Shown in pieces: positions 657 to 31,879 of a DNA stretch of 34,904 nt. This DNA is from Nitrospirota bacterium. GTDB taxonomy: Bacteria > Patescibacteriota > Gracilibacteria > UBA1369 > LOWO2-01-FULL-3. The position numbers and the translations under genes are program-made. Below the pieces are notes generated by a model, which searched no databases, was not told the DNA's origin, and saw only the letters and a list, made by a program, of their open reading frames with translations. Within the stretch, counting starts at the first letter, position 1; each line of letters opens with the position of its first letter. The DNA lies in assembly GCA_030598325.1 (NCBI GenBank), contig JAUVQE010000003.1:1-34904 (forward strand). The letters run 5' to 3'.

Positions 657-2381
657 ATGGCAATAAACCAGGAAATTCTGGTAAAAGCACTATTGGAGAA
701 GAAATTGATACAAGAAAAGGCCTTAACCGGCTTTATCAGTCATGCCAAAACTCAAAATAAATCTCTGGAAAGTTTGCTGTTTGAACGTGAAGTAATATCG
801 GATAGTAAATTGGGAGAAGTGGTCGCGGAACTTTATGGCGTTCCATTTATAAAAATCACTGAAAAAACAATATCCGAACCATTACTCAGAATAATTCCTT
901 ATACGTTAGCATCCCATCAATTCGTAATCCCTTTCGAAAGCAACGGAAGCGATCTGCAAATAGCATTAAACAACCCTCACAATTTTGAATTGATGAGTTT
1001 TATTGAAAAAAAGACGGGACTAACAATAATTCCCCATTACGCGACCAAAAAAGACTTAAAAACAGCATTAAAAGTATACAACAGAGACGTTAATCGAAAA
1101 TTTAATACACTACTGAAAAGCGCGTTAAAAGACCCGACAAAAATAGAATCGTTAAAAGACGCGGCCAAAATTTTGGATACAATAATATTCTTTGCGTACC
1201 AAAACAACGCTTCGGACGTTCACATCGAACCGCACAAAGAATTCATATTAGTCAGATACAGAATTGATGGAATTCTTCAAACAATTGCCGAATTACCGAT
1301 GGCGATACTTGAATTGCTCACAACAAGAATAAAAGTTCTGGCAAATATGCGGACAGATGAACACAGGGCGGCGCAAGACGGACGTTTCAAAATTGAACTG
1401 GAAAATATTGAAATAACCCTCCGTGTTTCGATCATTCCAATATATGAAGGAGAAAAAACAGTCCTCAGATTATTGAGTTCCACAAGCCAGGAATTGAATT
1501 TGGAGGCATTGGGTTATTCGGACAGAAATCTAAAAGTAATCCATAATAATATTTTGAAAACAAGTGGATTAATACTGATGACGGGACCGACAGGATCAGG
1601 AAAAACAACCACTCTATACTCAATTTTAAAATTACTTAATTCTCCCGAGGTAAACGTAGCAACAATCGAAGATCCAATCGAATACAGGCTCGAAGGAACA
1701 AATCAAATTCAGGTTAACCCCAAAACAAATTTAACCTTTGCCAAAGGGTTGCGGGCATTACTTCGACAAGATCCGGATATCGTAATGGTGGGGGAAATCC
1801 GTGACGAAGAAACCGCGGACATAGCAATAAACGCGGCATTAACAGGACATATAGTTTTAGCGACACTGCATACAAACGACGCCGCGTCCACCATCCCGAG
1901 AATGCTCGAAATGGGTGCGGAAGCATTTTTATTATCCGCGACAGTAAAAACGATAATCGCCCAAAGGCTGGTCAGAACAATCTGCTCAAAATGCAAAAAA
2001 GCTTACAAAATAAGTAAAGAAAAATTCAACGAACTTGGACAAAAATTTAATTTGGGTAAAAATTTCGATGAAATTTTTCAGGAAATCAGCGAAACAAACC
2101 CCAAATTAAAAGAAACCCTGTCCGGAACCGAAGTAATCATCAGTAAAGGGGAGGGTTGTGCCTCATGTTCGGGAAGCGGATATAAAGGCAGAACTTCAAT
2201 AGCGGAAGTAATGGAAATAACAGAAGATATTAAAACACTCATATTAAAAAACGCTCCACCGAGAGAACTGGAAGATAAAGCAAGAGAACAGGGGATGACC
2301 ACAATATTCGCTGACGGAATTTTAAAAGTTCTTAACGGGGAAACCACATTGGAAGAAGTATTAAGAGTAATGCGTACTTAA
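657..2381 (+). CDS. pilB: Type IV pilus assembly (extension) ATPase, PilB/GspE family
   Basis: Walker A MTGPTGSGKTTTLYS, Asp box IEDPIEYRLEG, Walker B-like DPDIVMVGEIRDEETA, His box GHIVLATLHTNDA, tetracysteine CSKC...CASC zinc motif. Confidence 0.95.
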   Translation: MAINQEILVKALLEKKLIQEKALTGFISHAKTQNKSLESLLFEREVISDSKLGEVVAELYGVPFIKITEKTISEPLLRIIPYTLASHQFVIPFESNGSDLQIALNNPHNFELMSFIEKKTGLTIIPHYATKKDLKTALKVYNRDVNRKFNTLLKSALKDPTKIESLKDAAKILDTIIFFAYQNNASDVHIEPHKEFILVRYRIDGILQTIAELPMAILELLTTRIKVLANMRTDEHRAAQDGRFKIELENIEITLRVSIIPIYEGEKTVLRLLSSTSQELNLEALGYSDRNLKVIHNNILKTSGLILMTGPTGSGKTTTLYSILKLLNSPEVNVATIEDPIEYRLEGTNQIQVNPKTNLTFAKGLRALLRQDPDIVMVGEIRDEETADIAINAALTGHIVLATLHTNDAASTIPRMLEMGAEAFLLSATVKTIIAQRLVRTICSKCKKAYKISKEKFNELGQKFNLGKNFDEIFQEISETNPKLKETLSGTEVIISKGEGCASCSGSGYKGRTSIAEVMEITEDIKTLILKNAPPRELEDKAREQGMTTIFADGILKVLNGETTLEEVLRVMRT

Positions 2382-2390
2382 CCCAAAAAA

Positions 2391-3599
2391 ATGCCAAAAT
2401 TTGAATACGTTATCACAGACGAAACGGGGCGGAAAAAAGAAGGCACAATAACCGCCTCAAATAAGCTAAAGGCGACAGAAAAACTTCGCAGGAAAAACGA
2501 AATAATCATTTCGATAACCGAAAAAAAGAGAGGAAAATTTTTTCTATTCGGAAAACCAAGAATGAGTTTGCAGGAAAAAGTTGTCTTCACGAAAAGTTTG
2601 GCGACAATGATAAAAGTAGGAATAACAGTTACGGAAGCGTTCGAAATAATATTTGATCAGGCTGAAAAAAGAGGATTGAAATCAATGTTTGAAGATATCT
2701 TGGAAAGAATCAAAACAGGGCAATCTTTGGCCAGTTCTTTAAGGAAATACAATAATGTTTTTTCCGATCTTTTCGTGAATATGATCGAAACAGGAGAAGA
2801 AAGTGGAAATTTGGGACGTGTATTACACCGATTGACAATACAGCTTGAAAAAGAATACGAACTTAAAAAAAGGGTATTCAGCGCATTAATCTATCCCGCT
2901 GTTATTATTTCGGTCACCATAATTATGGCGATTGGAATAGTGCTTTTTATAATGCCGAAAATCACAGGAATATTCGAAAAATTCGACATTGATCTACCTT
3001 TACCAACAAGAATACTGATAGGATTTAGTAAATTTTTAACCGAGCAGACATTAATAGCGATTGGTTTGACGGTAGGGATAGTGGGCGGAATAATATTTTT
3101 GGGAAAATTAAAAGCTCTAAAACCTTTCTGGCATACCTTGTCTTTAAAATTACCGGTTTTCGGAGATTTGCTGATTTCCGCGAATGTAGCCCGTTTTTCA
3201 AGAACAATAAATTCACTTCTGCAGTCCGGAGTTCCGGTAGCGGAAGGATTGGGAATGACCGGAAAAATGCTTGATAACACGCTATATAAGACAGTTCTGG
3301 AAGAGGTCAGTGAAAAAATCGTACAGGGAGGAGGCATAGGGGAAAATTTGGAAAAACACAGAAAACTTTTTCCTCAATTGGCCACAAAGATGCTACAAAT
3401 TGGAGAAAAAACGGGAAGCCTGGAAGTTACCACAAAATACATAGCACAACTCTACGAAAAAAATGTTGAAGACAAAACAAGAAATTTATCAGTTCTACTG
3501 GAACCGCTTCTGCTTGTTTTTATGGCGGTAATGGTTGGAGGAATAGCACTTTCGATAATATTGCCAATCTATCAGCTCCCGAACCTTCTCAATAAATAA
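2391..3599 (+). CDS. pilC: Type IV pilus inner-membrane platform protein PilC/GspF
   Basis: Two GspF-like repeats (FTKSLATMIKVGITVTEAFEI; FSRTINSLLQSGVPVAEGL), C-terminal LLEPLLLVFMAVMVGGIALSIILPIYQL. Confidence 0.95.
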   Translation: MPKFEYVITDETGRKKEGTITASNKLKATEKLRRKNEIIISITEKKRGKFFLFGKPRMSLQEKVVFTKSLATMIKVGITVTEAFEIIFDQAEKRGLKSMFEDILERIKTGQSLASSLRKYNNVFSDLFVNMIETGEESGNLGRVLHRLTIQLEKEYELKKRVFSALIYPAVIISVTIIMAIGIVLFIMPKITGIFEKFDIDLPLPTRILIGFSKFLTEQTLIAIGLTVGIVGGIIFLGKLKALKPFWHTLSLKLPVFGDLLISANVARFSRTINSLLQSGVPVAEGLGMTGKMLDNTLYKTVLEEVSEKIVQGGGIGENLEKHRKLFPQLATKMLQIGEKTGSLEVTTKYIAQLYEKNVEDKTRNLSVLLEPLLLVFMAVMVGGIALSIILPIYQLPNLLNK

Positions 3600-3600
3600 T

Positions 3601-4077
3601 ATGAAAATATCAGAAAAAACAAACAGAACACCAAAAGCCTTCACACTCGTTGAAGTAGTCCTCGTTATAATTCTAATCGGAGTATCAGTAGGCTTTTCGA
3701 TTCTCTATCATCAATCCTCCCAGGTGCGGGCGGATATAAACTCACAGGTTGCGCAATTTACGTCATACGTAAGGCTGGCCCACAGCGACGCTTTATCCGG
3801 ACTTGAAGACCAATCGCACGGAATACATTTGGAAACGTCTTCATACACGATCTTCATTGGGAGTTCTTATGACCTCATGGACGAATTCAATTTTGTTATA
3901 GAACTGTCCCCGACAATAACAATAGAAAATATAAGCCTTAACGGAGGAGGAAGCGACATAATATTTACAACCACAGCAGGCGAAACCGCGCAATACGGGA
4001 CGTTGGATTTTGTCTCAACTCAAATTGGAAAAACAATAAATGTAGAAATAACCAAATTTGGAACAGTAACTTATTAA
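3601..4077 (+). CDS. Type IV prepilin-like minor pilin (GspH/FimT-like)
   Basis: Class III signal KA/FTLVEVVLVIILIG followed by a single hydrophobic helix. Confidence 0.8.
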   Translation: MKISEKTNRTPKAFTLVEVVLVIILIGVSVGFSILYHQSSQVRADINSQVAQFTSYVRLAHSDALSGLEDQSHGIHLETSSYTIFIGSSYDLMDEFNFVIELSPTITIENISLNGGGSDIIFTTTAGETAQYGTLDFVSTQIGKTINVEITKFGTVTY

Positions 4078-4078
4078 T

Positions 4079-5929
4079 ATGAAAAACCGTCATCTAAAAA
4101 AAGGATTCTCAATAATAGAAGTATTGCTGGCAATAACAATCTTCGCAATATTCTCTGCGGGAATTTTTTATCTTTCTTTGGACACCATACAAAGAGACAT
4201 AAAAGTTAATTTAAACACGGAAGCGATTTTATACGCACAAGAAGGATTGGAAGCGGCTCGAAACATCAGAGACAAAAACTATCTTCTTCTGACAAATGGA
4301 GACAAAGGCTTGTTTCTCAACGAAGGAAGTTGGGAATTTGTAATAGCCCCGGAAGATATTGACGGATTTTACAGCAGAACAATCACAATTGAAGACGTTT
4401 ATCGTGACGAAAACGGAGACATTGACGAGGAAGGGTTATATTTCGATTCGGACACAAAAAAAATAACATCCGAAGTGTCATGGCTACAAAAAGGAGTAAT
4501 TCCAAAATCGATTTCGCTAACGTCATACCTGTCAAACTGGACAGGCGATGACTGGATAGAAACAACATGTACGGATTTCGATGCGGGAACATATGAAGGT
4601 ACGGAAACAGGAATTACCGAAAGCCCCCCTGAAGATAATTGCGATATTGTGCTTACAGCCGTTGAAATGGGAAGCGAATATTTCTATTTCGGTAATTTCG
4701 GACACCATGGAAATGATATAATTGTTGAAGGGAATTACATATATCTCGCTACAGAATATTCCAATAAAGGACTGGTAATACTCGATATTTCAGATCTTGA
4801 AAACATTACCACCGCAAGTGAGGTAGATATTGGACACAAAGGAAATCGTTTAACAAAAGCGGGTAATTATGTGTACATGGGAACACAAAATGGTGCTTTG
4901 GGACTGACTGTGGTAAACGCGTCAGATCCCAATAACGCATTTTTATATTTTTCCTGGCCGTTGGGAGGACTGGGTAACCAACCGACCATATCTGGGAGCA
5001 ATCTCTACATGACTGTAAATGAAAGTGGTTCGGGATTACAGATATTCGATGTAAGCGCAGAACAATTGCCAACTCCGTTATTAATAGACAGTTATGACTT
5101 TGACAACGAAGCTTATATTGCCAAAATAAACGGAAATTACGCATATGTAGGGCTTGGTGACGACTCATTGGGACTCAGGGTTATGGATATTTCAGACCCA
5201 TATGATATTACCGAAATAGCGTCTCTTAACGTCGGAGAGGAAGTTAACGCGATAACAATAACAGGAACAATCGCGTTTATTGGGACGGAAGGCAGCAATG
5301 ATTCTTTACAAGTAATAAATATATCCGATCCGGAAAATCCAACAATAGTAACATCACTTGATGTAGGAGGTGAAATAGAAGATTTGGTGATATCGGGTGA
5401 TTATCTATACGCGGCCGTTGATAACCAAAACGCGGGACTGGCGGCAATAAACATATCAAACCCATTCTCGCCGTATCTCGTATACAATCTGGATATTGAA
5501 GGAAAAGGGTCAGGAATTGACGCAAACGAAACGTATGTATTTGTAGCAACCGACACGAAAAACAAAGGCCTTGTAATAATAGGAACAACAGTAGCAAGTG
5601 TTGTGGAAAGCGGAGCATTTACTTCTCAAATTTTTGATACGGGAAGCTCCGACACCAGATATAATTTTATTGAATGGGATCATGAAGAGGTGCCAAGCGC
5701 TTCTGTGAAATTTCAGCTTAGAACCGCTGACTCCGCTGAAAATATAGCAACGGCAACGTGGGTGGGCTCGGACGGAACGGTCGATACCTATTATGAAAAT
5801 CCACGCACAATTATTACACTGGATCCGGGAAAAACCGGAGTAAGATATTTCCAATACAAAACATTTATTGACTCAGACGGAATAACCAGTCCAGCGATCA
5901 GCAGTGTAAGAATTAATTTCACACCATGA
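4079..5929 (+). CDS. Prepilin N-terminus fused to LVIVD-type beta-propeller repeats and a C-terminal beta domain
   Basis: KKG/FSIIEVLLAITIFAIF signal; repeated GLVILDISD, GLTVVNASD, GLQIFDVS, GLRVMDISD, SLQVINISD, GLAAINISN blades; C-terminal SGAFTSQIFDTGSSDTRYNFIEWDHE region. Confidence 0.8.
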   Translation: MKNRHLKKGFSIIEVLLAITIFAIFSAGIFYLSLDTIQRDIKVNLNTEAILYAQEGLEAARNIRDKNYLLLTNGDKGLFLNEGSWEFVIAPEDIDGFYSRTITIEDVYRDENGDIDEEGLYFDSDTKKITSEVSWLQKGVIPKSISLTSYLSNWTGDDWIETTCTDFDAGTYEGTETGITESPPEDNCDIVLTAVEMGSEYFYFGNFGHHGNDIIVEGNYIYLATEYSNKGLVILDISDLENITTASEVDIGHKGNRLTKAGNYVYMGTQNGALGLTVVNASDPNNAFLYFSWPLGGLGNQPTISGSNLYMTVNESGSGLQIFDVSAEQLPTPLLIDSYDFDNEAYIAKINGNYAYVGLGDDSLGLRVMDISDPYDITEIASLNVGEEVNAITITGTIAFIGTEGSNDSLQVINISDPENPTIVTSLDVGGEIEDLVISGDYLYAAVDNQNAGLAAINISNPFSPYLVYNLDIEGKGSGIDANETYVFVATDTKNKGLVIIGTTVASVVESGAFTSQIFDTGSSDTRYNFIEWDHEEVPSASVKFQLRTADSAENIATATWVGSDGTVDTYYENPRTIITLDPGKTGVRYFQYKTFIDSDGITSPAISSVRINFTP

Positions 5930-6447
5930 TAAAAAAAATAAATAAAAATAGAGGAACCACTTTAATAGAAATATTATTTTATTTTGTAATAGTTGGAGTA
6001 CTTCTCTTTGTGGCAATGAATTTTGCGATTCAAATACTTAACGTGTCAAAACAGTCGGAAAATGCCCATGAATTACAGGCCAACATAAATTTTGTGTCAC
6101 AGAAAATTGTCTCAACGGTTCAGACAGCAGAAAGCATAGATGACACAAATAGCATATTTGATAATGATCAGGGAAAACTCTCGCTAAATTTATCAGAAGC
6201 GTCAAAAACACCAACATTGTTTTACATTTCCAGTGGAGATGTTTTTATCAAAGAAGGCAGTGACGCAGCGGTCAAAATCAATTCGGAATCAATAAACTGT
6301 TTAAGCCTGAGATTTCAACGCATCACATACGCTAAGACCCCGGATCAGATAATCATAGACGCCGTTTTTGAAGTAAAAAACGTGGAAATAACAAATCTTG
6401 AACAAACATTACCATTTCACACATCAGTATCATTAAGAAAAATATGA
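5926..6447 (+). CDS. Minor prepilin-like protein (PilW-like position)
   Basis: NRG/TTLIEILFYFVIVGVLLFVA signal and hydrophobic helix; ATGA overlap with the upstream gene. Confidence 0.7.
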   Translation: MIKKINKNRGTTLIEILFYFVIVGVLLFVAMNFAIQILNVSKQSENAHELQANINFVSQKIVSTVQTAESIDDTNSIFDNDQGKLSLNLSEASKTPTLFYISSGDVFIKEGSDAAVKINSESINCLSLRFQRITYAKTPDQIIIDAVFEVKNVEITNLEQTLPFHTSVSLRKI

Positions 6448-6857
6448 AAAATATGAAAAGTCTAAAAACATTATCGAATAATAAAGGATCAATCGCATTA
6501 ATCAGCGTATTAGTAATCTGTGCAATAATGATACTGTTTACTGTCAGAATGTCGGAATCCAATATCTCCACCATGTATCAATATTTAAATAATGAATCCA
6601 GCCAAATAATTTATCGTGCGGCAGAGAGTTGCTTGGAAGAATCAATCTTAAGAATTGAAAAAGACACATCCTTTTCAGGAACGACTTTGAATTTAGGTGA
6701 CGCGACTTGTGTTTCAACGGTAACAGGAAGTGATGTTAAAACAATTTCAATTGTAATTAATTACAATTCATACACTCAAAACTATTCCGCGGAAGCGTCT
6801 GTCACAACTGGCGGGAACGCAAATAATATTGAGCTTCAAAAATGGGAGAAAACCTAA
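6444..6857 (+). CDS. PilX-like minor pilin
   Basis: NNKG/SIALISVLVICAIMILFTVRMSESN; IIYRAAESCLEESILRI resembles the PilX family; ATGA overlap with the upstream gene. Confidence 0.6.
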   Translation: MKNMKSLKTLSNNKGSIALISVLVICAIMILFTVRMSESNISTMYQYLNNESSQIIYRAAESCLEESILRIEKDTSFSGTTLNLGDATCVSTVTGSDVKTISIVINYNSYTQNYSAEASVTTGGNANNIELQKWEKT

Positions 6858-6869
6858 TAATATAGAGAC

Positions 6870-8525
6870 ATGAGTTTATTTACAAAAAGAATACTGGGGA
6901 TAGATATACATGATTATTCTGTCGAACTTGTAGAAATAAGACAGAAAGGAAAAGAAATGTATCTGGAGGCTTACAACAGGGCTTTACTGGAAACAGACGT
7001 TGTGAAAAACGGCGAAATAAAAAAACCGGAAGAACTTAAAAAAGTTCTAATCGAATTAATAAAAAACGCGAACCCAAAAGCTGTAGAAACAAGAAATACA
7101 GCAGTAATTTTCCCCTCAAGCAAGGTATTAACCCATATTTTTACTTTTCCGGCAAATCTGGACGAAAACGAAATCAAGAAATCAATAGCGTATGAGGCGG
7201 AAACAATAATCCCATTCTCGATAAACGATGTTTATTGGGATTTTATGGTCATAGAAAAAGAAGATGTTTCAAAAAAACACGCATCCCAATATGTATTTTT
7301 TGCATGTGTAAACAAGCAAATAGCGGATGAATATACCGCGGTTCTTGAGTCAATAGGTCTAAATCCACTCTTGTCAGGGATCAATGCGGAAGCACTCAAA
7401 TATGCGATGTGGGAACAAATGAACAAAGATGAAACAAATTTAATTCTGGATATAGAAACTCTTTCAGTTAATTATTTGGTAGTCAAAAATCAAAAAATTC
7501 AATACTTTTTTAGTTCAAACGAAGGAGGCAAAAAACTATTAAGCAAGCTTTCAAAAGAGCTTCAGTCACCGGAAAAAATAATTCTTAACAAAAAAGAACA
7601 AAGAGAATTCAAAAGTATGTCAAACACAGATGAACTAAAAAAATTCATAGGAAAAAACTACAAAAGAGGGAAAGCGATAATAGAAGAATTGGCCGAGAAA
7701 GCAACAAGCATAAAAGTACAAAACATTATCCTTACGGGAGAATTTCTCAATCTCCCCGGTTTTTACGAAGTAGCGAAAACATATTTTCCCGATCAAAAAA
7801 TCCTTATTGGGGATCCCAAAACAAATTTAAAAATAGAGCAGGGGAAATTTATACCCATGGAAACAAGATCAAAAAGCGAAATTCCTTATTCAACACATTT
7901 TGCAAACGCTATCGGAATTGCATTAAGAGCAGTAAACGGGAAAGATGAATCAGGAGGAATAAATCTTTTACCGGGCAGACTAAAAGAAAGCATAACAAAC
8001 AAAAAAAAATCACTAATAATCGCGGCGGCGGTTATACTGATGACGGGAATATCGCTTTTCACAGCAACTTTTTTGTTTTTTATGCACCAAAACTTAATGT
8101 ACGACAGATTAAAATTGGAAATCGAAAAATCAACAATTGAAAATATGATATACGGAACAAGATATCAGCAAATACATGAAGAAATAACAGCATTAAATAA
8201 AGAAATAAACGAACTCAACGATATAAACAACACGCTGTTTTCCATGCCAATTACACTTGAAGAAATATTAAAATTAGTACCTGAAGGCGTGGAAGTAAAA
8301 TCAATGGATTTTATTGACGAAGAATTGACAGTTTCAATAACAGGAATAGCAAAGACAAGAGCGAAATTATTAGAAATCCAAGGTAATTTTGAGAACGCAG
8401 AATTTATCGAAGAGGTGATTGCCCCAATTTCAAATTTTGACGAAGAATTACAAATATCATTCGTGATAAAAATAAAATTGAATTTTATTAAACTTGCCAA
8501 ATATGACTCAGGTGCAGATATCTAA
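6870..8525 (+). CDS. PilM-PilN fusion protein of the type IV pilus alignment subcomplex
   Basis: N-terminal actin-like PilM (LGIDIHDYSVELVEI...), then GGINLLPGRLKES (PilN INLLP motif), a TM helix and a PilN-like periplasmic domain in one frame. Confidence 0.8.
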   Translation: MSLFTKRILGIDIHDYSVELVEIRQKGKEMYLEAYNRALLETDVVKNGEIKKPEELKKVLIELIKNANPKAVETRNTAVIFPSSKVLTHIFTFPANLDENEIKKSIAYEAETIIPFSINDVYWDFMVIEKEDVSKKHASQYVFFACVNKQIADEYTAVLESIGLNPLLSGINAEALKYAMWEQMNKDETNLILDIETLSVNYLVVKNQKIQYFFSSNEGGKKLLSKLSKELQSPEKIILNKKEQREFKSMSNTDELKKFIGKNYKRGKAIIEELAEKATSIKVQNIILTGEFLNLPGFYEVAKTYFPDQKILIGDPKTNLKIEQGKFIPMETRSKSEIPYSTHFANAIGIALRAVNGKDESGGINLLPGRLKESITNKKKSLIIAAAVILMTGISLFTATFLFFMHQNLMYDRLKLEIEKSTIENMIYGTRYQQIHEEITALNKEINELNDINNTLFSMPITLEEILKLVPEGVEVKSMDFIDEELTVSITGIAKTRAKLLEIQGNFENAEFIEEVIAPISNFDEELQISFVIKIKLNFIKLAKYDSGADI

Positions 8526-9072
8526 CAGTTTGAAACGAATACTACTAATAACGCTGGTGCTTATCTTTATAAGTACCTCTACGGTAGTAATTATTGGAGA
8601 ATCAATAAAAAGTTTAGGTAGAGAAATAGAACAATTAAATATATTTCTTGAGGATGCGGAGGAAATTCAACCAAATTTTGAAACAAGCCTGGAAATGTAT
8701 ACCAAAGAGACAAAACAGATAATAAATTTTTTATCCGAACTAAGACCTGATACAGAAAAAGAAATTGTTGATGCGATATCCAAAATAGAAGATGTAGGAA
8801 AAGGGCTGTCTTTAAATATAGAACTGAAACACCTGGAAACCAAATCTATGGAAGTTGAAACAACAGAAAGAGGAGCTCTTAGCTATAGCATTTCTTTTTA
8901 CGGAACGATGACAGATTTAAAAAACTTTACAAAAGAATTGGAAAAGTTAATGTTCTTTATTAAAATTGAAGAAATAAATTTTGAAGATACAAAATTTCTT
9001 GATGGAGGCGAATTAAAAGAAAGTAAAAATATAAATATGAAAATTGTACTTTATACCAAACAATCATCATGA
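8494..9072 (+). CDS. pilO: PilO-like protein
   Basis: One TM helix, coiled coil, then ferredoxin-like LSYSISFYGTMTDLKNFTKELEKL typical of PilO; overlaps the pilM-pilN end (an alternative start at 8503 is possible). Confidence 0.65.
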   Translation: MPNMTQVQISNSLKRILLITLVLIFISTSTVVIIGESIKSLGREIEQLNIFLEDAEEIQPNFETSLEMYTKETKQIINFLSELRPDTEKEIVDAISKIEDVGKGLSLNIELKHLETKSMEVETTERGALSYSISFYGTMTDLKNFTKELEKLMFFIKIEEINFEDTKFLDGGELKESKNINMKIVLYTKQSS

Positions 9073-9278
9073 AAATAAAAAACTACAAAAGCTATTTACC
9101 ATTCGGGCTCTCCATGCTACTATTCCTAACAGTAATATTTTGGCTCTTGTCACTATATTTTAATTTAAATGGAAAACTGGAGGAGGAAGCAAAGGTAGAG
9201 ATTAAACTGCCGGTAATAGAATGGAATAAATATATGGAATTACCCAAGCAATACGAGGAAGATAAAGTGGATAGATAA
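9069..9278 (+). CDS. Small bitopic membrane protein of the pilus cluster
   Basis: ATGA overlap with pilO-like gene; single TM LPFGLSMLLFLTVIFWLLSLYF and a charged tail. Confidence 0.6.
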   Translation: MKIKNYKSYLPFGLSMLLFLTVIFWLLSLYFNLNGKLEEEAKVEIKLPVIEWNKYMELPKQYEEDKVDR

Positions 9279-9319
9279 CAACTTTCAATTATAAATATAA
9301 CTCATTAACAAACATTCCT

Positions 9320-9760
9320 ATGAGAAACAAAAGAGGTTTCACCCTCGTGGAAGTCTTATTGGTAATTGTGATTATCGCGATTCTTGCAGCAATCGTTATA
9401 GTTGCTATTAATCCAGGAAGACAAATTTCACAAGCAAACAACACTCAACGAAGCAGTGATGTAAAAACTATTCTTGATGCAGTACACGAGTACGCAATCG
9501 ACAATAGAGGAGTATATCCTACCGGAATAACAGCGGTACCTACAGTTATAGGAGACGACGCGCTGGAAATTGACATTTGTTCTTTCCTTGTGCCGACGTA
9601 CATAGCTGCAATGCCTTATGATCCAAATGTCGATGGAGGCGCCTATACAGATTGTACAACGTATTATACCGGCTATACGATATCGCAGGACGCTACCATC
9701 CGTGTCACAGTTGCCGCGCCATCAGCAGAATTAGAGGAAACAATTAGTGTAACGAGATAA
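9320..9760 (+). CDS. Type IV major pilin / pseudopilin
   Basis: MRNKRG/FTLVEVLLVIVIIAILAAIVIVAINPGRQ canonical class III signal and pilin helix. Confidence 0.88.
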   Translation: MRNKRGFTLVEVLLVIVIIAILAAIVIVAINPGRQISQANNTQRSSDVKTILDAVHEYAIDNRGVYPTGITAVPTVIGDDALEIDICSFLVPTYIAAMPYDPNVDGGAYTDCTTYYTGYTISQDATIRVTVAAPSAELEETISVTR

Positions 9761-11873: not shown

Positions 11874-14060
11874 TTATTTTATTACTTTTAACGGAGCAAT
11901 ACTAAGCGCTAATTTTTTTACTCCGACCTTCGGATCTTCAAACGCGACAGTCGCTACACCCCCCACAACGCTAACCACAATACCATTTCCAAACACATTA
12001 TGCGAAACTTTGTCACCCGAAGAAATCTCAATATCAAGCCCTTTATCAAGCTCAACAGGAATAGGCCGATTATCAATATCCGACACCGAAATATGCTGTC
12101 TGGCACTATGCCCGCCAAAATTAGCCTCAATAAATTGCTCATCAATATCAGCTAAAAACTGAGAAGGCGCATTAGCTCGCGACTCTCCATAAAGCATCCT
12201 GCTCCGGGCATGAATCAGATATAGCTTTTCCATGGCCCTTGTCATAGCGACATACATCAGCCTGCGTTCCTCCGCCAATTCACCCGGATCCATCAAGCTT
12301 CTGTTGTGCGGGAAAATTCCCTCTTCCAGGCCGGCAATAAACACATAAGGAAATTCAAGTCCCTTAGCCGAATGAACAGTCATCAAAGTAACCGCGTTGT
12401 CCTCATCGTCCAGGCTGTCGAGATCCGAAATCAGACTGACCTCCTCAAGAAAAATATTCAGACTAACTCCGCTCTCAAGGTCATTATATTTGTGGGCAAC
12501 CGAAATAAGCTCATTAATATTTTCAATTCTCGCCTCACCTTCGACACTCCCATCGTTAATCATTTTCTTGTAACCGGTTTCATCCAAAACAAACTTTATC
12601 ATCCCGCTCGCCGGCGTTTCTTTGTTTTTCTCCTGCAAATTTTTAATCAGTTTGACGAAATCTTCCAGAACTTTGGCTTTACTCTCCGGAATTTCTTCAA
12701 TCTCGTTAGCGAGCAACATGGCGTCAAAAAAAGATAAATTATGTTTGATCGCAAATTCGCGAACGGTATCGAGGGTTTTTGCCCCAAGTTTGCGGGTTGG
12801 GGTGTTTATAATCCGGAAAAGGCTCACGGAATCATTTGGATTTTGAATAACTCGCAGGTACGCGAGAAGATCTTTAATTTCTTTTCTGGAATAAAACTTG
12901 ATTCCACCGACGATTTTGTAAGGAATGCCGTGCCTCATAAAAACTTCCTCGAAAATACGGGACTGGGCGTTTGTGCGGTAAAGCACAACAAAATCTTTAT
13001 AAGCCGGAAATTCGCTTCCAATAAGTATATTCTCGATTTCACAAGCAACCATTTGTCCTTCATGCCTCTCGTTGTCCGTAAGCCAACGACGAACTTTGTC
13101 ACCGCCCTCCCGCTCGGTCCAAAGAACTTTTTCCTTCCTATGCGCGTTTTTCTTTATGACGCAATTCGCGGAATCCAGAATAATTTGAGTAGATCTGTAA
13201 TTTTGTTCCAGCATTACGACTTTCGTTTCCGGATAATCTTTCTCAAAATCGAGAATATTTCGAATAGTCGCGCCCCGCCAACTGTAAATACTCTGATCCA
13301 CATCCCCAATCACACAAATATTTTGATATTTTTCCGCCAAAAGCTTGATAAGCACATATTGCGCCTTATTCGTATCCTGATACTCATCCACGGAAATAAA
13401 TTTAAATTTTTCCTGATATTCATCAAGGATATCGGGAAATTTTTGGAATAATTCCACGGTTTTCATAATAATATCATCAAAATCCAACGCACTACTTCGT
13501 ATCAAAGCCTTTTGGTATAGAGGATAAATTTCCGCGACCTTTTCTGAAAAATAATCATTTGCGTAGCTTCGGAATTCATCGGAACCGATCAGTTGATTCT
13601 TAGCATTCGAAATATGGGCAAGCACCGCCTTCGGATTTACCCGTTTTACATCCAGATTCATATCTTCCATGACTCTTTTTATCAAAATTTGCTGATCAGC
13701 CATGTCGTAAATACCAAAAGAATTTTCATAATCCAAAAGATGAATATGTTTTCGGAGAATTCTTACGCAGATTGCATGAAAAGTTCCGACACTCGGAATA
13801 GAGCCACCATAATTATTATTAAGATCAATAGAAAGCAGTTTCGCGATCCGATTTTTCATCTCATTCGCAGCCTTGTTTGTAAAAGTAACCGCCAGAATAT
13901 TCCAGGGGCTTACTCCCTTTTCCTCAATCAACCAGGCGATTCTATGGGTAAGAGCTCTTGTTTTTCCACTCCCGGCCCCCGCAACAACAAGCAAAGGTCC
14001 GGTAAAATGAGTTACCGCCTTAATCTGTTTATCATTCAAGTTTTCTAAAATTTTGCTCAT
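11874..14060 (-). CDS. pcrA: UvrD/PcrA superfamily 1 DNA helicase
   Basis: LNDKQIKAVTHFTGPLLVVAGAGSGKTRALTHRI; VDEYQDTN; LEQNYRST; VTLMTVHSAKGLEFPYVFI; EERRLMYVAMTRA. Confidence 0.96.
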   Translation of the reverse strand: MSKILENLNDKQIKAVTHFTGPLLVVAGAGSGKTRALTHRIAWLIEEKGVSPWNILAVTFTNKAANEMKNRIAKLLSIDLNNNYGGSIPSVGTFHAICVRILRKHIHLLDYENSFGIYDMADQQILIKRVMEDMNLDVKRVNPKAVLAHISNAKNQLIGSDEFRSYANDYFSEKVAEIYPLYQKALIRSSALDFDDIIMKTVELFQKFPDILDEYQEKFKFISVDEYQDTNKAQYVLIKLLAEKYQNICVIGDVDQSIYSWRGATIRNILDFEKDYPETKVVMLEQNYRSTQIILDSANCVIKKNAHRKEKVLWTEREGGDKVRRWLTDNERHEGQMVACEIENILIGSEFPAYKDFVVLYRTNAQSRIFEEVFMRHGIPYKIVGGIKFYSRKEIKDLLAYLRVIQNPNDSVSLFRIINTPTRKLGAKTLDTVREFAIKHNLSFFDAMLLANEIEEIPESKAKVLEDFVKLIKNLQEKNKETPASGMIKFVLDETGYKKMINDGSVEGEARIENINELISVAHKYNDLESGVSLNIFLEEVSLISDLDSLDDEDNAVTLMTVHSAKGLEFPYVFIAGLEEGIFPHNRSLMDPGELAEERRLMYVAMTRAMEKLYLIHARSRMLYGESRANAPSQFLADIDEQFIEANFGGHSARQHISVSDIDNRPIPVELDKGLDIEISSGDKVSHNVFGNGIVVSVVGGVATVAFEDPKVGVKKLALSIAPLKVIK

Positions 14061-14112: not shown

Positions 14113-14141
14113 TTGACCTTTTACTTTAATTCTGCTTAAAT
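14113..14141 (+). promoter_or_regulatory. Candidate promoter for the zinc-ribbon/structured RNA locus
   Basis: TTGACC (14113-14118) - 17 nt - TTAAAT (14136-14141). Confidence 0.45.
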
Positions 14142-14164
14142 TCTCCCTCGTATGCTCATTTACA

Positions 14165-14618
14165 AATAGAAATTTAAAGTTGGGGAAGCAAAACAAAGAA
14201 GGGACCACGAATGGAAACGCAAACGGAAACACGACCGCAAACGCAAACGGAAGTCAGCTTTTGTAACAATTGCGATGACCACAGTAAAATGGGACATCAT
14301 TTCTGCCCCGACTGCGGAAGGAGGACAAACGGAGACAGCAGGGACACAACAACATACTGCCTGAGATGTGTAGGAAAGCTCAAGGCAGTACTGTCTGAAC
14401 GTGTCCTGCAAAAAGAATGTTATTGTCCCAACTGCAGGACAATGACAGACACATTGTTCGAGCCCACCAAGATGCTCGGCTTCTAACAACTTTCCGGCTC
14501 CCCCAAAGCCCTACCCTACGTCAGCTACTAAAATTATTATCAGGATATTCTAAAAATATACTTGAAATATCAGCTGGCGTGGGGAAAAACTAAACTTTCT
14601 CAACTTTAGATTTCTATT
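14165..14618 (+). repeat. Imperfect inverted repeat arms (14165-14188 / 14595-14618) enclosing a small ORF
   Basis: AATAGAAATTTAAAGTTGGGGAAG pairs with CTTTCTCAACTTTAGATTTCTATT over 24 contiguous positions; the 3 non-Watson-Crick positions are all G-U on the + strand. Confidence 0.75.
14211..14486 (+). CDS. Small double zinc-ribbon protein, function unknown
   Basis: Four CxxC motifs: FCNNC, FCPDC, YCLRC, YCPNC; AGAAGGG upstream of the ATG. Confidence 0.65.
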   Translation: METQTETRPQTQTEVSFCNNCDDHSKMGHHFCPDCGRRTNGDSRDTTTYCLRCVGKLKAVLSERVLQKECYCPNCRTMTDTLFEPTKMLGF

Positions 14619-14619
14619 C

Positions 14620-15636
14620 CTAATACTGGACAACCACTTTGTCCCCGACCTCAGTAAAGCCAAATAGCCATACAGCATTATCATCCCCGATCCTGATACA
14701 GCCATGGCTTACAGGGATGCCTAAATGACTCACAGCCTCCGTCCAGAACCAACCACCATCATTTCCCAGGCTGGGGAGGGCGTGCATCCCGTACCCGCCG
14801 GCTCTAAACATCTGAAAATAAGGCATTATATAGTGTGGAGATTTCGAACCAACGCGAAGTTCCTGCTTCAAACTGATATAGGTCGTTCCAACAGGAGTAG
14901 GAGTAGCCGAAGCACCCGTACTTACCCGAAATTCTCTTATTACGTCCTCACCCAGTTTTACATACATCATCTGTTCGGAAAGATCGACTAAAACAGACCT
15001 TTCCCCATCCAGATTCATATCCATCACGGAACCACTGTCAAAAGCATAAGACAATCTTTTTCTCAAATTCTCAGAACTTTCATCAACATCTCCAACCATA
15101 ATTTCAAAGGAAAACTGCGCGTCATCAATCCACTGAATGCCACTAAGAATAGGAGTAAAATACTCTTTTATTACATCAGGCTCATCCGGAGCTTCCGACC
15201 AAAAAGTAAAAGAAGCAATTTGTCCCGGATCAATTCTCAGCTGATCCATGCCAATTCTGTTCGAGTCTTCCCAGTTTGTTTCCTCGACACCTAAAAGTTC
15301 GGGTGAATAAAAAATACTGTCCCGATCTCGTTCCTTATCGGTTCCCAAATGCATTTCCGGCCCCAGACACTCACTTTCAGCGGAAAACCAGGGCATATTA
15401 CCGGTATTTTTAATAAAAACCTTAACCCGGAAAATTTCTCCCGGTTCAATTTTAAGTTTTCTTCTGACAGCCACAACTTCAGCATCATAAGATTCACCTT
15501 CTTCGGGAAAATTAAACCCGCACACCTCTCTCTCGCCGCTTTCCATATCATCCGCAAAAGCAACAGAACAGCTGATCACGCTAGCGAAAATGACCAAAAC
15601 AATCGGAAATAATCTGAATAATCTACTGAAACGCAT
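14620..15636 (-). CDS. L,D-transpeptidase (YkuD) with N-terminal NBR1-type Ig-like domain
   Basis: Signal peptide; VKVFIKNTGNMPWFS...IDPGQIASFTFWSEAP (NBR1-Ig-like); catalytic YGMHALPS...HLGIPVSHGCIRIGDDNAVWLF. Confidence 0.88.
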   Translation of the reverse strand: MRFSRLFRLFPIVLVIFASVISCSVAFADDMESGEREVCGFNFPEEGESYDAEVVAVRRKLKIEPGEIFRVKVFIKNTGNMPWFSAESECLGPEMHLGTDKERDRDSIFYSPELLGVEETNWEDSNRIGMDQLRIDPGQIASFTFWSEAPDEPDVIKEYFTPILSGIQWIDDAQFSFEIMVGDVDESSENLRKRLSYAFDSGSVMDMNLDGERSVLVDLSEQMMYVKLGEDVIREFRVSTGASATPTPVGTTYISLKQELRVGSKSPHYIMPYFQMFRAGGYGMHALPSLGNDGGWFWTEAVSHLGIPVSHGCIRIGDDNAVWLFGFTEVGDKVVVQY

Positions 15637-24658: not shown

Positions 24659-24687
24659 ATTAAAGCACTTTTCTCTTTTTTTGTCAA
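24659..24687 (-). promoter_or_regulatory. Promoter for the VirD4/TraG-like gene
   Basis: Minus strand TTGACA (24687-24682) - 17 nt - TTTAAT (24664-24659); the -35 overlaps the TGA stop of the upstream Cys-rich gene. Confidence 0.65.
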
Positions 24688-26345
24688 TACACAGCCTCAC
24701 GATAGCATTTTTCGCAATAAATATTCCTTCCCTTCTCCGGATCATATGTAGTTTTAATATCACAACCACACTTATCACACTTATTCTCCCATAATTTCCT
24801 AGGATTTTTCGAAGCCAACAACTTCAAGTGTCTACAATCCGGACATCTCTTCGATAAATTTACTCCCATCCTCTTGCATAAATCAAATTCTTCTCTCAAA
24901 AATCTATAGTTCTTTCCACAATCCACACATGCTAATAACTTCCCGACAATATCATCCCCAGCCTTAAGAATAAGATCTGGGACCTCGCACTCACCCTTCT
25001 TATACCCTTTCGGATCCTTTTCCCTCCACTTCCATCCATTTTTCACAACTTCCTCCTCACTCATCGGAAAGTATTCATTGGCAACCGTCTCATTGTACGA
25101 ATACAGAGATAATTCAATCGGTAAAAACTCACCATACTCTCCTGTTTTTAAAACATGCTCTAAGACTTTGCTCCTTAATTCATTATATTCCTCAGCAGAA
25201 TATTTCTTGTTTAATACACAGTTTTCTGACTTTGAATGGATACCATCACATCCAAAACTATCCTTTAAATAAAAACAAGAATACAAATAATCACTATCAA
25301 TACTAGCTATCGTACAAAAAGAAAACCTCAGTCTTTTATTGCTTTCTCCACCTGAACAAAGCTCGTAGCACAACTCAATATCCTTATCATGCATTGCCAA
25401 ATCCATAGAATCCTTTACGTTAACTGCCTCATACATATATTTACAATCTTCCAAATCGAAACAATCATAACAGTCAAAACTATTTTTACAGTTTTGCATA
25501 TAATCACCAGAACAATTTTCACAATTAATTAGATTTCGTGCTTTTTTTGGAACTTTCTCACTAAATTCTATGAATTCTTTAAGCAGTTCTTCTGAATTTT
25601 GCGTTAACTTTCCCGTAACAATCTTTTTGTATTCTTCTTTTGAATATTGGTCGTTCTTAAAACAGTATTGTTTTTTTGAAAGACTCGCACACATAAAACA
25701 ATCACTACATCCAGTCGAGTCAGCCACATATAAACAATCTCTACAATTATTACAATTGATCATATTTTGAGAAGAATAACAGTTCTTACAATTTATAGAT
25801 GAACAAATAAGCTCACAATGATCTATAAAATTACAATCTAGACAATCGTTGGAGTATTGACTCTTTCTACAGTAATAACAATCTTCCAAAAAATAGCTAC
25901 CAGGACTCATATAAGTATTTTTGCAAAAAGCTAATAAGCTATTATAATCTGAATTTTCATTATTCAACTGAAGCAACCCCATCTTTGGGACAACATCAAG
26001 TAATTCTTTATACTGATCAAAAAATGGCCTGGAGAAATCAAAGTCTCGCCCATAATCCATTGCATCCCATTTATCACTCCACCAACAATCAACACAATAA
26101 ACAGGAAAACTTACTTTATCATCAAAAAAAGACACCATGGATTTTTCACATAAGTCACATTTTCTTTTATATAAATAGCGTTCATTTCTGAAAGCTAATC
26201 TCCGTTGTTGCCTGCAATCAGGACAAAGAGTCGGCGGTGGAACTTCATATTTTCTTCCCCCAAATTCAGGAGAAATCTTTTTGAAAAAAGCCAAATCATC
26301 TTCGGCAATCTCAAACTCAGAACCACATTGTTTACAATTATCCAT
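24684..26345 (-). CDS. Cys-rich protein with terminal zinc-ribbon modules and central Cys-rich repeats
   Basis: Start placed at 26345 (MDNCKQCGSEF); paired CxxC modules at both ends; central ...EDCYYCRKSQYSNDCLDCNFIDHCELICSSINCKNCYSSQNMINCNNCRDC... repeats. Confidence 0.8.
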   Translation of the reverse strand: MDNCKQCGSEFEIAEDDLAFFKKISPEFGGRKYEVPPPTLCPDCRQQRRLAFRNERYLYKRKCDLCEKSMVSFFDDKVSFPVYCVDCWWSDKWDAMDYGRDFDFSRPFFDQYKELLDVVPKMGLLQLNNENSDYNSLLAFCKNTYMSPGSYFLEDCYYCRKSQYSNDCLDCNFIDHCELICSSINCKNCYSSQNMINCNNCRDCLYVADSTGCSDCFMCASLSKKQYCFKNDQYSKEEYKKIVTGKLTQNSEELLKEFIEFSEKVPKKARNLINCENCSGDYMQNCKNSFDCYDCFDLEDCKYMYEAVNVKDSMDLAMHDKDIELCYELCSGGESNKRLRFSFCTIASIDSDYLYSCFYLKDSFGCDGIHSKSENCVLNKKYSAEEYNELRSKVLEHVLKTGEYGEFLPIELSLYSYNETVANEYFPMSEEEVVKNGWKWREKDPKGYKKGECEVPDLILKAGDDIVGKLLACVDCGKNYRFLREEFDLCKRMGVNLSKRCPDCRHLKLLASKNPRKLWENKCDKCGCDIKTTYDPEKGRNIYCEKCYREAVY

Positions 26346-28008
26346 AAATGGCTTCGTTATAGCATTTTTCACAATAAACAGTTTCCGGTCGATCCGGTGC
26401 ATATGAAGTTTTTATATCAACTCCACACTTGTCACACTTACGAGTCCAAACTTTATGAGGATTTCGCACCGACAACCGAACTTCGTTTCGAGTTTCAGGA
26501 GCCAATCTAGGAATCGGAATCTTCATTCTACGATAAAACTTCAATTCCTTCTCATTAATTTTATAAGGTCGCCCACTCTTCTCACATACCAAATTTTTAC
26601 TCAAAATATCGTCACCAACATCATCAATCGAATCAGGAATCTTCTCACCATTTTCAATCTCTTTTTCCTCTTCCTCTACCCAATTCAAGCCTGCCTCCGA
26701 AACTTCTTCCCGATTCATGGGAAAGAGATCATTGGCAACCGTTTCATTATAAGCCCACGGCGAAATGTTCATCGGGAAAAATTCACCCCACTCACCGGTA
26801 GACTTCATATGCTCAATAATTCGCGCTCTCATTTCAAAATAATCTTCCTTAGAATACTGTTTATTCAAAATACAATACGAAGCCTTCTTCATATTACTGC
26901 AACCAAAAAGATCATGAGAATTTTGGGCAATAGTATCGCAATAACGAGTGTCGTTTGCATGCCAAACAAATGATCCATAAGCACAATTTACGCCGGAAAT
27001 AGAACCCAACATTTCATAAAACAATTCGCATCCTTCATGTCCAACATGATCACTACTCGCGGCATCTTTGATACCCCAACCCGCAAGATAAACATCCTTC
27101 AAATCTTCAGCCGGTCCGGAAATATCAAAACAGTTATAAGCATTCTTCGCATTCACCAAATTATCACCAAAACTATTTTCAACATTCACCAAATTTGCAA
27201 ACTTATGAGGGAATCCTAATCGAAATTTATCAAACTCAGCCTTCATTCGTTCCACCGCAGAATAACTACCAAAATCATACTCCTTCATCTTCGTTTCATA
27301 CTCCTCTTTCGAATATTTCTTATTAAAAATATGATATTCCTTATTCCTCAGCCCCACACAAAACGCACAATTACTACAAGAACGACAATCAAACAAAAAC
27401 GCGCTATCCCGACAATTCTGCGAATTTCTACAATACTTACTCTCATACATTTTCACACAATCAATCAATTCGTAGCTCAATCTCGATTCCTCAACCCAAT
27501 AAGTGTCGTACAAATCCTGCGAATGAAAACAAAAACCGTCATACATACAATCCTCATTGAAATCCCCTCCAAAAACCAGATAACAATTCTTGTTTGAAGT
27601 CGTAATATTGCAATATTCGCTATTCTCAGCCTTCATATTCATCAAACTAAACCGCGGAACCGCCAACTGCAGCTCATGGAATTGTTCAAAAAAAGGCCGG
27701 TTAAAGTCATAATCACGGCCATATTCCTTTGGATCCCAATCATCACTCCACCAGACATCCTGGGAATAAACTTTATATGGTTTGTCAGAAGAATACAGGG
27801 AAATTATCGGATTACCGGTCAGATCACATTTATCTTTGTAAATTCTCCGCTCATTTCGATGAGCCAAACGTCGGCGCAATCGCTCATCCGGACACAAAGT
27901 CGGCAAAGGGAGCTTCATTCTTCGCAAAAGATCCTGTTCCCATTCAGTAATAACAAAATTTTTCCCGCTTACCCTGCATTTAAGGTTTAAATCAGCCATG
28001 GAAAACAA
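26338..28008 (-). CDS. Paralog of the neighbouring Cys-rich protein
   Basis: Collinear similarity (PTLCPDERLRRRLAHRNERRIYKDKCDL; WWSDDWDPKEYGRDYDFNRPFFEQ; NETVANDLFPM; KCDKCGVDIKTSYAPDRPETVYCEKCYNEAIYG); ATGGATAA overlap with the downstream paralog. Confidence 0.82.
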   Translation of the reverse strand: MFSMADLNLKCRVSGKNFVITEWEQDLLRRMKLPLPTLCPDERLRRRLAHRNERRIYKDKCDLTGNPIISLYSSDKPYKVYSQDVWWSDDWDPKEYGRDYDFNRPFFEQFHELQLAVPRFSLMNMKAENSEYCNITTSNKNCYLVFGGDFNEDCMYDGFCFHSQDLYDTYWVEESRLSYELIDCVKMYESKYCRNSQNCRDSAFLFDCRSCSNCAFCVGLRNKEYHIFNKKYSKEEYETKMKEYDFGSYSAVERMKAEFDKFRLGFPHKFANLVNVENSFGDNLVNAKNAYNCFDISGPAEDLKDVYLAGWGIKDAASSDHVGHEGCELFYEMLGSISGVNCAYGSFVWHANDTRYCDTIAQNSHDLFGCSNMKKASYCILNKQYSKEDYFEMRARIIEHMKSTGEWGEFFPMNISPWAYNETVANDLFPMNREEVSEAGLNWVEEEEKEIENGEKIPDSIDDVGDDILSKNLVCEKSGRPYKINEKELKFYRRMKIPIPRLAPETRNEVRLSVRNPHKVWTRKCDKCGVDIKTSYAPDRPETVYCEKCYNEAIYG

Positions 28009-28983: not shown

Positions 28984-30192
28984 ATGCACAAGATCAGAAC
29001 ACATCACAAACACGAAGAAGGAAAAATCTTCTCCCGATTAATCCTCATAATAGGTTTCGGGATAGGGTTGTCACTTCCAATATTTCCAAACTTTGTAAAA
29101 ACAATCTTAAGTACGGATTCGGCAACAAGCGCCTTTTATTCAACAATGGCGATAGTAATGATGATAACGGCACTGACCAGTACATTTCTCCTGAGAAAAG
29201 TCGAAAGATCCACAATAATAAAAGTAAGTCTCATTATTCTAAGCGCTTCATTTTTTGCCTTAATATTTGTGACGAGAATACAGTCGCTTGCGATTTTAAA
29301 CGCGCTTCAAGTCATTTTTTTACTGTTTGTAGTCATGACACTATCTCTATACGTAAGAGATTTTGCCAAAAGTAGAGACTTAGGCAAAGAAGAAGGAAAA
29401 TTTTTCAAATATCAAAACCTCGGTTACTTCGTCGGGCCGCTTATAGGTGGATTTACAGCGGTATATTTCGGTTATGAAACCGCATTTATATTATCATCCC
29501 TTGCTTTTATGCTCGGGTTTTTATATTTCAGTCATTTGCGTATCGTCCAGAAACATCCCGCAATTGTCGAAGGAAAAAAACAACCGCAATTTAAATTTTT
29601 TGAAAATCTAAAACACTATTTTAGAGAAAAAAACAGACGCAAAGTTTTCATATTCACTTTATTTTTAATGATATGGCTGGGATTTAAAAGGCTCTACATA
29701 CCGCTTTATATAGTGTTTTCCGGATACATAGAAAGCATGACGGGAATTATACTTGCCCTGACTATAGTTCCATTAATTTTAATGGAAGAAAAAACAGGGG
29801 AGTACGCCGATAAGCATGGAGTCAGAAAGCCAATAACACTTGGATTTACAATAATGGCGCTAAGCCTCCTGATAATCTTTTTCAACCCGTATACATTCGT
29901 CAATTTTTTTATTATCGTAGCCGCGCATTTCGGAATGGCGCTGGTGGAGCCGCTACAAGAATATTTTCTTTTTAAAAACATGAAGAAAAAAGACGAAGAT
30001 AATTTATATGGAATATATATGACCGCGGATCCGATAGCACTTTTCCTGACACCGACAATTGGAGCGGTAATACTGATATTTTTCCAGTTCAATCACTTAT
30101 TCCTGTTTTTTGGAATAATTATGGCTATCGCAAGCGGATTTTCGTGGTTTACCCTAAGACAGAAGTTGCCCGATGAACTTCCTCAAGAGTAG
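28984..30192 (+). CDS. MFS-type membrane transporter
   Basis: Roughly 12 hydrophobic segments; YQNLGYFVGPLIGGFTAVYFGYETAFILSS is MFS-like. Confidence 0.8.
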   Translation: MHKIRTHHKHEEGKIFSRLILIIGFGIGLSLPIFPNFVKTILSTDSATSAFYSTMAIVMMITALTSTFLLRKVERSTIIKVSLIILSASFFALIFVTRIQSLAILNALQVIFLLFVVMTLSLYVRDFAKSRDLGKEEGKFFKYQNLGYFVGPLIGGFTAVYFGYETAFILSSLAFMLGFLYFSHLRIVQKHPAIVEGKKQPQFKFFENLKHYFREKNRRKVFIFTLFLMIWLGFKRLYIPLYIVFSGYIESMTGIILALTIVPLILMEEKTGEYADKHGVRKPITLGFTIMALSLLIIFFNPYTFVNFFIIVAAHFGMALVEPLQEYFLFKNMKKKDEDNLYGIYMTADPIALFLTPTIGAVILIFFQFNHLFLFFGIIMAIASGFSWFTLRQKLPDELPQE

Positions 30193-31879
30193 TCAAACCC
30201 TGAGCGACTTTCAAAAAACCATCTTCCCGCAATGTAATAATGCCATCTTTTCTCGCCGCCGCGATTAAATCAACAGAACTAGCGTTATCGAGAATCAACT
30301 GCTTCATTTCTGAAGTAATAGTCACGACTTCGGCAAGAACAAGCCGTCCAAGATAACCGGTGTTGCTACAGGCATCACATCCATGAACTTTGGCGATCTT
30401 ATCGGGGATCTGTGCCTCAATCCCCGGATTAACTTTTTTCAGATTTTCAAATATTTCCGAGAATTCTTTTTCTTCACTTTTGCTAATGGGCTCGGATGTC
30501 ACACATTTCGGGCAAACTTTACGCACCAGGCGCTGGGCGACAATAGTATTAAGAGCGGGCGCCACCATAAAAGACGGAAGCCCCATATTCACAAGACGCG
30601 GAATAGCTTCAAGCGCGCTGTTTGTATGAAGAGTGCTTAAAAGAATATGACCGGTAAGAGATGCCTGCGCCGCGGTTTCAGCGGTTTCAATATCACGAAT
30701 TTCCCCAATCATAACAACATCAGGATCATGCCTTAAAATAGAACGCAGTCCCGTGGCGAAATTATAATCACGGCTTTCATCAACCTGACTTTGAGTGACC
30801 CCTTTCATGTAATATTCGACAGGATCTTCCAGGGTGATAATTTTATTTTCGGGAGTATTCATTATCCCGAGAATTGAATACAAAGTTGTGGATTTACCGC
30901 TTCCGGTAGGACCGGTAACAAGAATCATTCCCTGGGAAATGGTTGAAGCTTTTTGCAATTTTTTTAAAGCCAACCCCTGGAATCCAAGCTCTTCAAGAGT
31001 CAGAGCTTTGCGACCCGAAGGTAAATATCTGCATACAAAAGATTCACCATACGGAGTTGGGATCGACGCGACACGAACAGCGGTTTTATTTTTATTAAAA
31101 ACAAAAACATATCGGCCATCCTGCGGTATTGAAACCACATTAAGCTTCATTTTCGATTGATATTTGATTTGCTCGGCGATTTTGGAATAAATGCCTGCAT
31201 CAATTGTAAAAACCTCATGAAGCACGCCGTCTATACGAAACCTGACAACAACACGCCCTTCCTCCGGCTCATAATGGACGTCGGATGCATGAGTTTTCAT
31301 TGCGGCAACATTTAAAAGGTTTAACCCCTCCTCAGCTGTAATTTCAGAAAGTTTTTTTGGTAAATCTTTTAATTGGGTGATTTCTTTCTCATAAGTTTTG
31401 ATAGCCCCTTCCTCGACTTTCTCAATAATTTCAATTTTTTTATATTTTTGCGTGGATTTATAAAATTTTAAAGCATCATCAATTCCGGCGGATGAAGCCA
31501 AATTTACATTAACTTCATAGCCTTGTTTTTGTAGGGCCTCAATTGTGCTTTTTGTTTCAGGATCTTCAGGTTCTTCTACGGCAACCCTCATTTTTTTCCC
31601 GACTCTGAAAAATGGAATAAGCCGAGCCTTCTGCGCATCCTCATAATCAACCAATTTTAAAAAATCAGCATTAAGCGGAGTTTTTGCAATATTTATATAA
31701 GGCAATTCCAAATCTCCGGCACGCTTCAAAGTGGATTTTTCCTGAAATTCTCTGTTCACCTGGGAAACAGCGGTAGAAGTGGTCACCATTTTTGACGCAG
31801 ACTTTTTGCTTTCAGCAGAACCCTGTGCCTGATCAGCCACTTGCGCTTTGTCACCCGTAGTAAGATCCTGATTTACCAT
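30149..31879 (-). CDS. Second PilB/GspE-type ATPase
   Basis: Walker A VTGPTGSGKSTTLYSILG; LEDPVEYYMKGVTQSQV; DPDVVMIGEIRDIETAETAAQASLTGHILLSTLHTNSA; CPKC...CDAC zinc motif. Confidence 0.94.
   Translation of the reverse strand: MVNQDLTTGDKAQVADQAQGSAESKKSASKMVTTSTAVSQVNREFQEKSTLKRAGDLELPYINIAKTPLNADFLKLVDYEDAQKARLIPFFRVGKKMRVAVEEPEDPETKSTIEALQKQGYEVNVNLASSAGIDDALKFYKSTQKYKKIEIIEKVEEGAIKTYEKEITQLKDLPKKLSEITAEEGLNLLNVAAMKTHASDVHYEPEEGRVVVRFRIDGVLHEVFTIDAGIYSKIAEQIKYQSKMKLNVVSIPQDGRYVFVFNKNKTAVRVASIPTPYGESFVCRYLPSGRKALTLEELGFQGLALKKLQKASTISQGMILVTGPTGSGKSTTLYSILGIMNTPENKIITLEDPVEYYMKGVTQSQVDESRDYNFATGLRSILRHDPDVVMIGEIRDIETAETAAQASLTGHILLSTLHTNSALEAIPRLVNMGLPSFMVAPALNTIVAQRLVRKVCPKCVTSEPISKSEEKEFSEIFENLKKVNPGIEAQIPDKIAKVHGCDACSNTGYLGRLVLAEVVTITSEMKQLILDNASSVDLIAAARKDGIITLREDGFLKVAQGLTTLEEVHRATSVLG

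Follow-up and report, generated by a model that had tools for sequence, protein, structure and literature searches.

Does the small zinc-ribbon gene between uvrD/pcrA and ykuD of a Gracilibacteria-type genome lie in a transcript whose structure has a function of its own, and what would this function be? The window, i.e., the whole stretch of 34,904 nucleotides analysed here, stems from a 0.92-Mb, 74%-complete draft genome (G000), which we compare with two sister species of the same genus (G001 and G002). The element covers 14113-14619 and is oriented divergently to uvrD and convergently to ykuD. We give about even chances to a genus-restricted fold-back mRNA whose closed ends would govern how stable the RNA is, how it is processed, or how its zinc-ribbon product is translated. 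The locus is composed of the following parts:

11874-14060, - strand: uvrD/pcrA
14113-14142, + strand: candidate sigma-70-like promoter (TTGACC ... TTAAAT/TAAATT), a weak match (9/12)
14153-14190, + strand: near-invariant 5' leader block (36/38 and 37/38 positions identical between G000 and the sisters, 39/42 in the third pairwise comparison)
14165-14188, + strand: 5' arm of stem P1, pairs with 14595-14618
14179-14189, + strand: GTTGGGGAAGC in the P1 5' arm, could pair alternatively with the C-rich motif
14199-14205, + strand: Shine-Dalgarno-like AAGGGAC, its GGG ~7-11 nt upstream of the ATG in three species
14211-14486, + strand: ORF of 91 aa, fast-evolving four-CxxC (double) zinc-ribbon protein
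14495-14507, + strand: conserved C-rich motif CGGCTCCCCCAA(A), unpaired in the minimum-energy fold
14514-14584, + strand: P2, conserved 3' UTR hairpin (14514-14526/14572-14584 plus an apical stem)
14595-14618, + strand: P1 3' arm, adjoins the ykuD stop codon (14620-14622, - strand)
14620-15636, - strand: ykuD (L,D-transpeptidase)

Both sister species examined carry the element at the same place (ykuD / element / uvrD-pcrA). G001 likewise has it between uvrD and ykuD; G002 uses the same site, but holds a second zinc-ribbon ORF inside the element. Elsewhere in the family, sister genera often have just about 60-200 bp between ykuD and uvrD, or else unrelated genes. Thus, both the element and the promoter region belonging to it appear to have been added in this genus. 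The extra genes that other genera place in this gap (L136-L139) differ and are unrelated. Elsewhere in the window, a type IV pilus / type II secretion-like cluster (PilB, PilC, pilin-like genes, PilM) lies upstream at 657-9760, and a second PilB-like ATPase is encoded at 30149-31879.

The end parts of the element (38-nt 5' block, 3' arm, C-rich motif, and 3' UTR hairpin) are 73-100% identical. Between G000 and the sisters, 23/24 and 22/24 positions of the P1 3' arm are shared, 13/13 and 12/13 of the C-rich motif, and 55/70 and 52/71 of the P2 region (73-79%). Fourfold-degenerate sites of the neighbouring ykuD are 34-37% identical between G000 and the sisters and 58% between the two sisters, while those of uvrD are 44% identical between G000 and G001; by these alignments, the divergence of both genes from G000 is near saturation. 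For nrdR, the corresponding identity is 56-59%, from few sites. Because the structured ends are nearly letter-for-letter the same in three species while the zinc-ribbon gene changes fast, it is these ends that seem to be functional and regulatory. The comparison shows the ends to be under strong purifying selection and the ORF to be diverging fast; at the level of the alignment, conservation is highest in the ends and not in the protein.

The two arms form P1 (14165-14188/14595-14618), 24 contiguous pairs of which three are G-U. This stem had been proposed in a sequence-only reading of the DNA and proves real: P1 ranks first among the contiguous, G-U-allowed stems on both strands of the 34.9-kb window, followed by one of 17 pairs, and the longest stems in 25 dinucleotide-shuffled control windows reach 15-20 pairs (whole-window scan, partner within 700 nt). 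Its arms are present around the orthologous zinc-ribbon genes of both sisters, and 24/24, 24/24, and 23/24 pairs are kept in the three species. Two variable pairs inside the arms are Watson-Crick in some species and G-U in others when read on the + strand; this is consistent with a + strand RNA because a G-U pair there is an A-C mismatch on the other strand. The variable P1 pairs thus stay pairable in the + strand sense only. Double compensatory changes are absent from P1 in the three sequences available.

P2, the second stem proposed by the same reading (14514-14526/14572-14584), recurs in both sister species. Across the three sequences, 95.8% of its cells are paired versus 30-51% when the alignment is slid, and three pairs are altered on both sides in a compensatory manner. 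With only three sequences, the control by shuffling is weak: 29/500 shuffles attain the covariation score and 43/500 the double-change count; over all measures, the observed values are attained by 29-79 of 500 shuffles.

Folding energies point to the same strand. Compared with shuffles, the + strand folds 7-8 standard deviations better (z = -7.1, and -7.9 in a repeat run), whereas the - strand reaches z = -4.1 in both runs. Over the full length in the three species, z amounts to -7.9, -5.8, and -4.5 for the + strand versus -4.1, -2.8, and -2.8 for the - strand. Taken alone, the 3' UTR body of the window element has z = -6.5, and the ORF segment yields -3.8, -1.9, and -1.9 in the three species. 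The bulk of the + strand fold excess thus appears to sit in P1 and P2, as judged from the folding models. Within the ORF, the hairpin 14355-14390 forms locally in the fold of the window sequence. The hairpins 14392-14451 and 14459-14478, which had been listed among the structures of the transcript, retain just 9/20 pairs in each orthologue; by this alignment, they are not conserved and not supported as functional structures. The comparison supports the overall proposal that a zinc-ribbon ORF is embedded in a structured transcript, with the same place in three species, near-invariant ends, retained pairing, and compensatory changes in P2.

The enclosed ORF indeed encodes four CxxC pairs, and all four are retained in the three species at a protein identity of 35-61%. 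The product is a charged protein that scores 25.6 bits against the Pfam double zinc ribbon DZR (PF12773), just under the gathering cut-off of 27.3 bits; the match has E below 0.01 for all four proteins of the element. Structure prediction of the protein gave low confidence (pLDDT 45). A tandem 12/24-nt repeat at 14206-14252 (GGAAACGCAAAC) encodes its N-terminus, and the orthologues have other simple repeats at the N- or C-terminus. In G002 (L046:9897-10524, - strand), the two zinc-ribbon ORFs are each preceded by the same AAGGGACACAC leader and apparently arose by duplication inside the arms. Two neighbouring genes at 24684-28008 of the window encode large, Cys-rich proteins of 572 and 556 aa that are related to each other and carry zinc-ribbon-like CxxC motifs at the termini.

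Of the promoter that had been assigned to 14113-14141, a match is found, but a weak one; its TTGAYC is also present in both orthologues, yet identity over 14113-14150 does not exceed 55-71%. A search of the + strand revealed no intrinsic terminator. Near the predicted transcript start, a frame of five codons (ATG CTC ATT TAC AAA TAG, MLIYK; 14152-14169) terminates within the P1 5' arm. Its counterpart is MFIYK in G001, and in G002 CTG replaces the ATG; the frame may be chance or a leader peptide.

Two partners would compete for the 5' leader in the fold-back mRNA that we favour. One possible partner of the leader GUUGGGGAAGC(C) is the terminal arm, with a duplex of about -26 to -29 kcal/mol over the whole arm; the other is the conserved, otherwise unpaired GGCUCCCCCAA in the 3' UTR (-15 to -18 kcal/mol). 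The C-rich motif is complementary to the leader in all three species, but the energy of this pairing does not go beyond that of shuffles (p = 0.18, 0.08, and 0.08). In partition-function folds, the leader/C-rich pairing has a probability of 0.33, 0.87, and 0.82 without the 3' arm and of ~0 with it, and P1 reaches at least 0.95 once the arm is present. A co-transcriptional switch through the conserved C-rich motif is possible on these models. The GGGG is kept despite making two of the three G-U pairs of P1, presumably because it must pair with both partners.

The predicted molecule would be a structured mRNA of ~470 nt, starting near 14150 and ending near 14620. P1 would pair its 5' leader and 3' terminus end to end; the loop would hold the zinc-ribbon ORF (two in one sister), and the 3' UTR would contain the C-rich motif as well as P2. 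During transcription, the leader GUUGGGGAAGC(C) would pair first with GGCUCCCCCAA. Once the 3' arm is made, P1 would displace this pairing and close the molecule. Closed in this way, the RNA would have a protected 5' end and a double-stranded site for processing of the RNase III type, and synthesis of the zinc-ribbon protein would be limited or timed. A broader and doubtful, if possible, reading takes the element as a new class of structured RNA in one Gracilibacteria-type genus, with a bistable end-to-end fold as its conserved functional unit, zinc-ribbon ORFs as variable cargo, and a product that may bind the RNA. The bistability in this reading consists of the C-rich motif and the terminal arm competing for one 5' leader.

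The alternatives differ from the fold-back mRNA in where they place the function. It is unlikely, but best supported among them, that the RNA itself is the main product of an RNAIII-type dual-function locus, acting in trans by targeting its exposed C-rich motif to ribosome-binding sites of other mRNAs, with the zinc-ribbon ORF as a second, dispensable output. In its favour, the ORF diverges, and is doubled in one species, whereas the RNA ends stay conserved; moreover, the minimum-energy fold leaves the nearly invariant C-rich motif unpaired. RNAIII of Staphylococcus aureus, 514 nt long, likewise combines long-distance helices with an internal ORF and accessible UCCC motifs (PMC3861533). However, an exact-match search revealed no trans target: G000 and G002 each contain GTTGGGGGAGC once, both times inside unrelated reading frames and at about chance level, and the element's own 5' leader is a possible partner of the motif.

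Alternatively, the conserved blocks might be DNA-level protein-binding sites or regulators of ykuD/uvrD, e.g., a convergent-transcription or terminator sequence, with RNA pairing as a by-product. The P1 arm sequence is more invariant than base pairing alone needs, the 3' arm directly adjoins the stop codon of ykuD, and the element sits in antisense orientation between this gene and uvrD; given the sequence invariance, some DNA-level role of the arms is possible. As the whole explanation it is improbable, since the variable pairs are pairable in the + strand sense only, P2 carries compensatory changes, the fold excess over shuffles is smaller for the - strand in each of the three species, and uvrD has its own TATAAT-like promoter sequence with or without the element. 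Slightly less probable still is the small cassette bounded by terminal inverted repeats that had also been suggested, its arms being transposase-recognised ends of a passenger gene moved in trans: near-invariant inverted arms do bound an interval that is absent from sister genera and holds variable cargo of one or two ORFs, but the element is present in a single copy per genome, keeps its site in three species despite near-saturated synonymous divergence of its neighbours, shows conservation past the arms to P2 and the C-rich motif, and comes with no transposase and no obvious target-site duplication (no direct repeat outside the arms in flanks inspected by eye).

The restricted distribution of the element emerges from all searches. 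The search for further copies with the same arms returned one copy per genome, in its own genome and in the sister species. DNA and protein searches of 195 relatives found it nowhere beyond the two sisters, and the 5' arm retrieved only these two from GTDB contigs. A covariance model of the 3' region detected no further element in 89 genomes of the order; the next match (E 0.024), in which the invariant sequence of C-rich motif and arm is missing, appears to be due to chance. A protein profile found no further homologue in 288 genomes of the class, and two other weak protein matches look like ribosomal protein L32 rather than orthologues. Viral contigs gave chance matches only, and phage and plasmid records held no copies. 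The check for a known RNA family returned none: Rfam 15 (4227 models) has no match in the window at the gathering threshold, and relaxed thresholds yield only sub-threshold, chance-looking matches in the element region. No tmRNA or tRNA is called in the window; a tmRNA, with its tRNA-like ends and tag ORF, is rejected as the identity of the element, and over-threshold tmRNAs lie on other contigs of G000 and G002.

Only a few bacterial mRNAs, all from well-studied species, are known to pair their 5' and 3' UTRs over a long range. The candidate would extend it to the uncultured candidate phyla radiation, for which a limited literature search found no described regulatory RNAs, and to a locus whose RNA ends outconserve the enclosed protein. 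The element is compact and could be moved into a laboratory host for testing.

Mobile insertion cassettes consist of IS ends around a passenger gene and lack a transposase. The element resembles them in the inverted arms that flank a small gene, but differs in its single copy, its fixed site, the lack of an obvious target duplication, and the structured RNA within the arms. RNAIII shares with it a length of about 500 nt (for the element, a predicted structured RNA), a small internal ORF, and a C-rich motif; it belongs to a different phylum and has no sequence relation to the element (no Rfam match), whose RNA has no known targets. In the icaR mRNA of S. aureus, a C-rich 3' UTR motif (UCCCCUG) is complementary to the 5' UTR, and the resulting double-stranded RNA is a substrate of RNase III (PMC3868564). 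In the element, too, the C-rich 3' UTR motif is complementary to the 5' leader, at an energy not beyond that of shuffles. However, the icaR pairing is short and covers the Shine-Dalgarno region, whereas the C-rich motif here would pair upstream of it; the element has a second, 24-bp terminal stem, and icaR encodes a repressor. In the hok mRNA of plasmid R1, the 3' end folds back onto the 5' region and closes the molecule (PMC5502269). Both are small-protein mRNAs whose 3' end returns to the 5' region, which for P1 is a matter of prediction and conservation. The closing stem of the element is longer and terminal, with no Rfam match; its product is a zinc-ribbon protein rather than a small hydrophobic membrane toxin of the Hok type, and no antisense RNA is known for it, in contrast to hok. 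Judged by these likenesses of architecture, hok, icaR, and RNAIII are functional analogues of the element and not its relatives.
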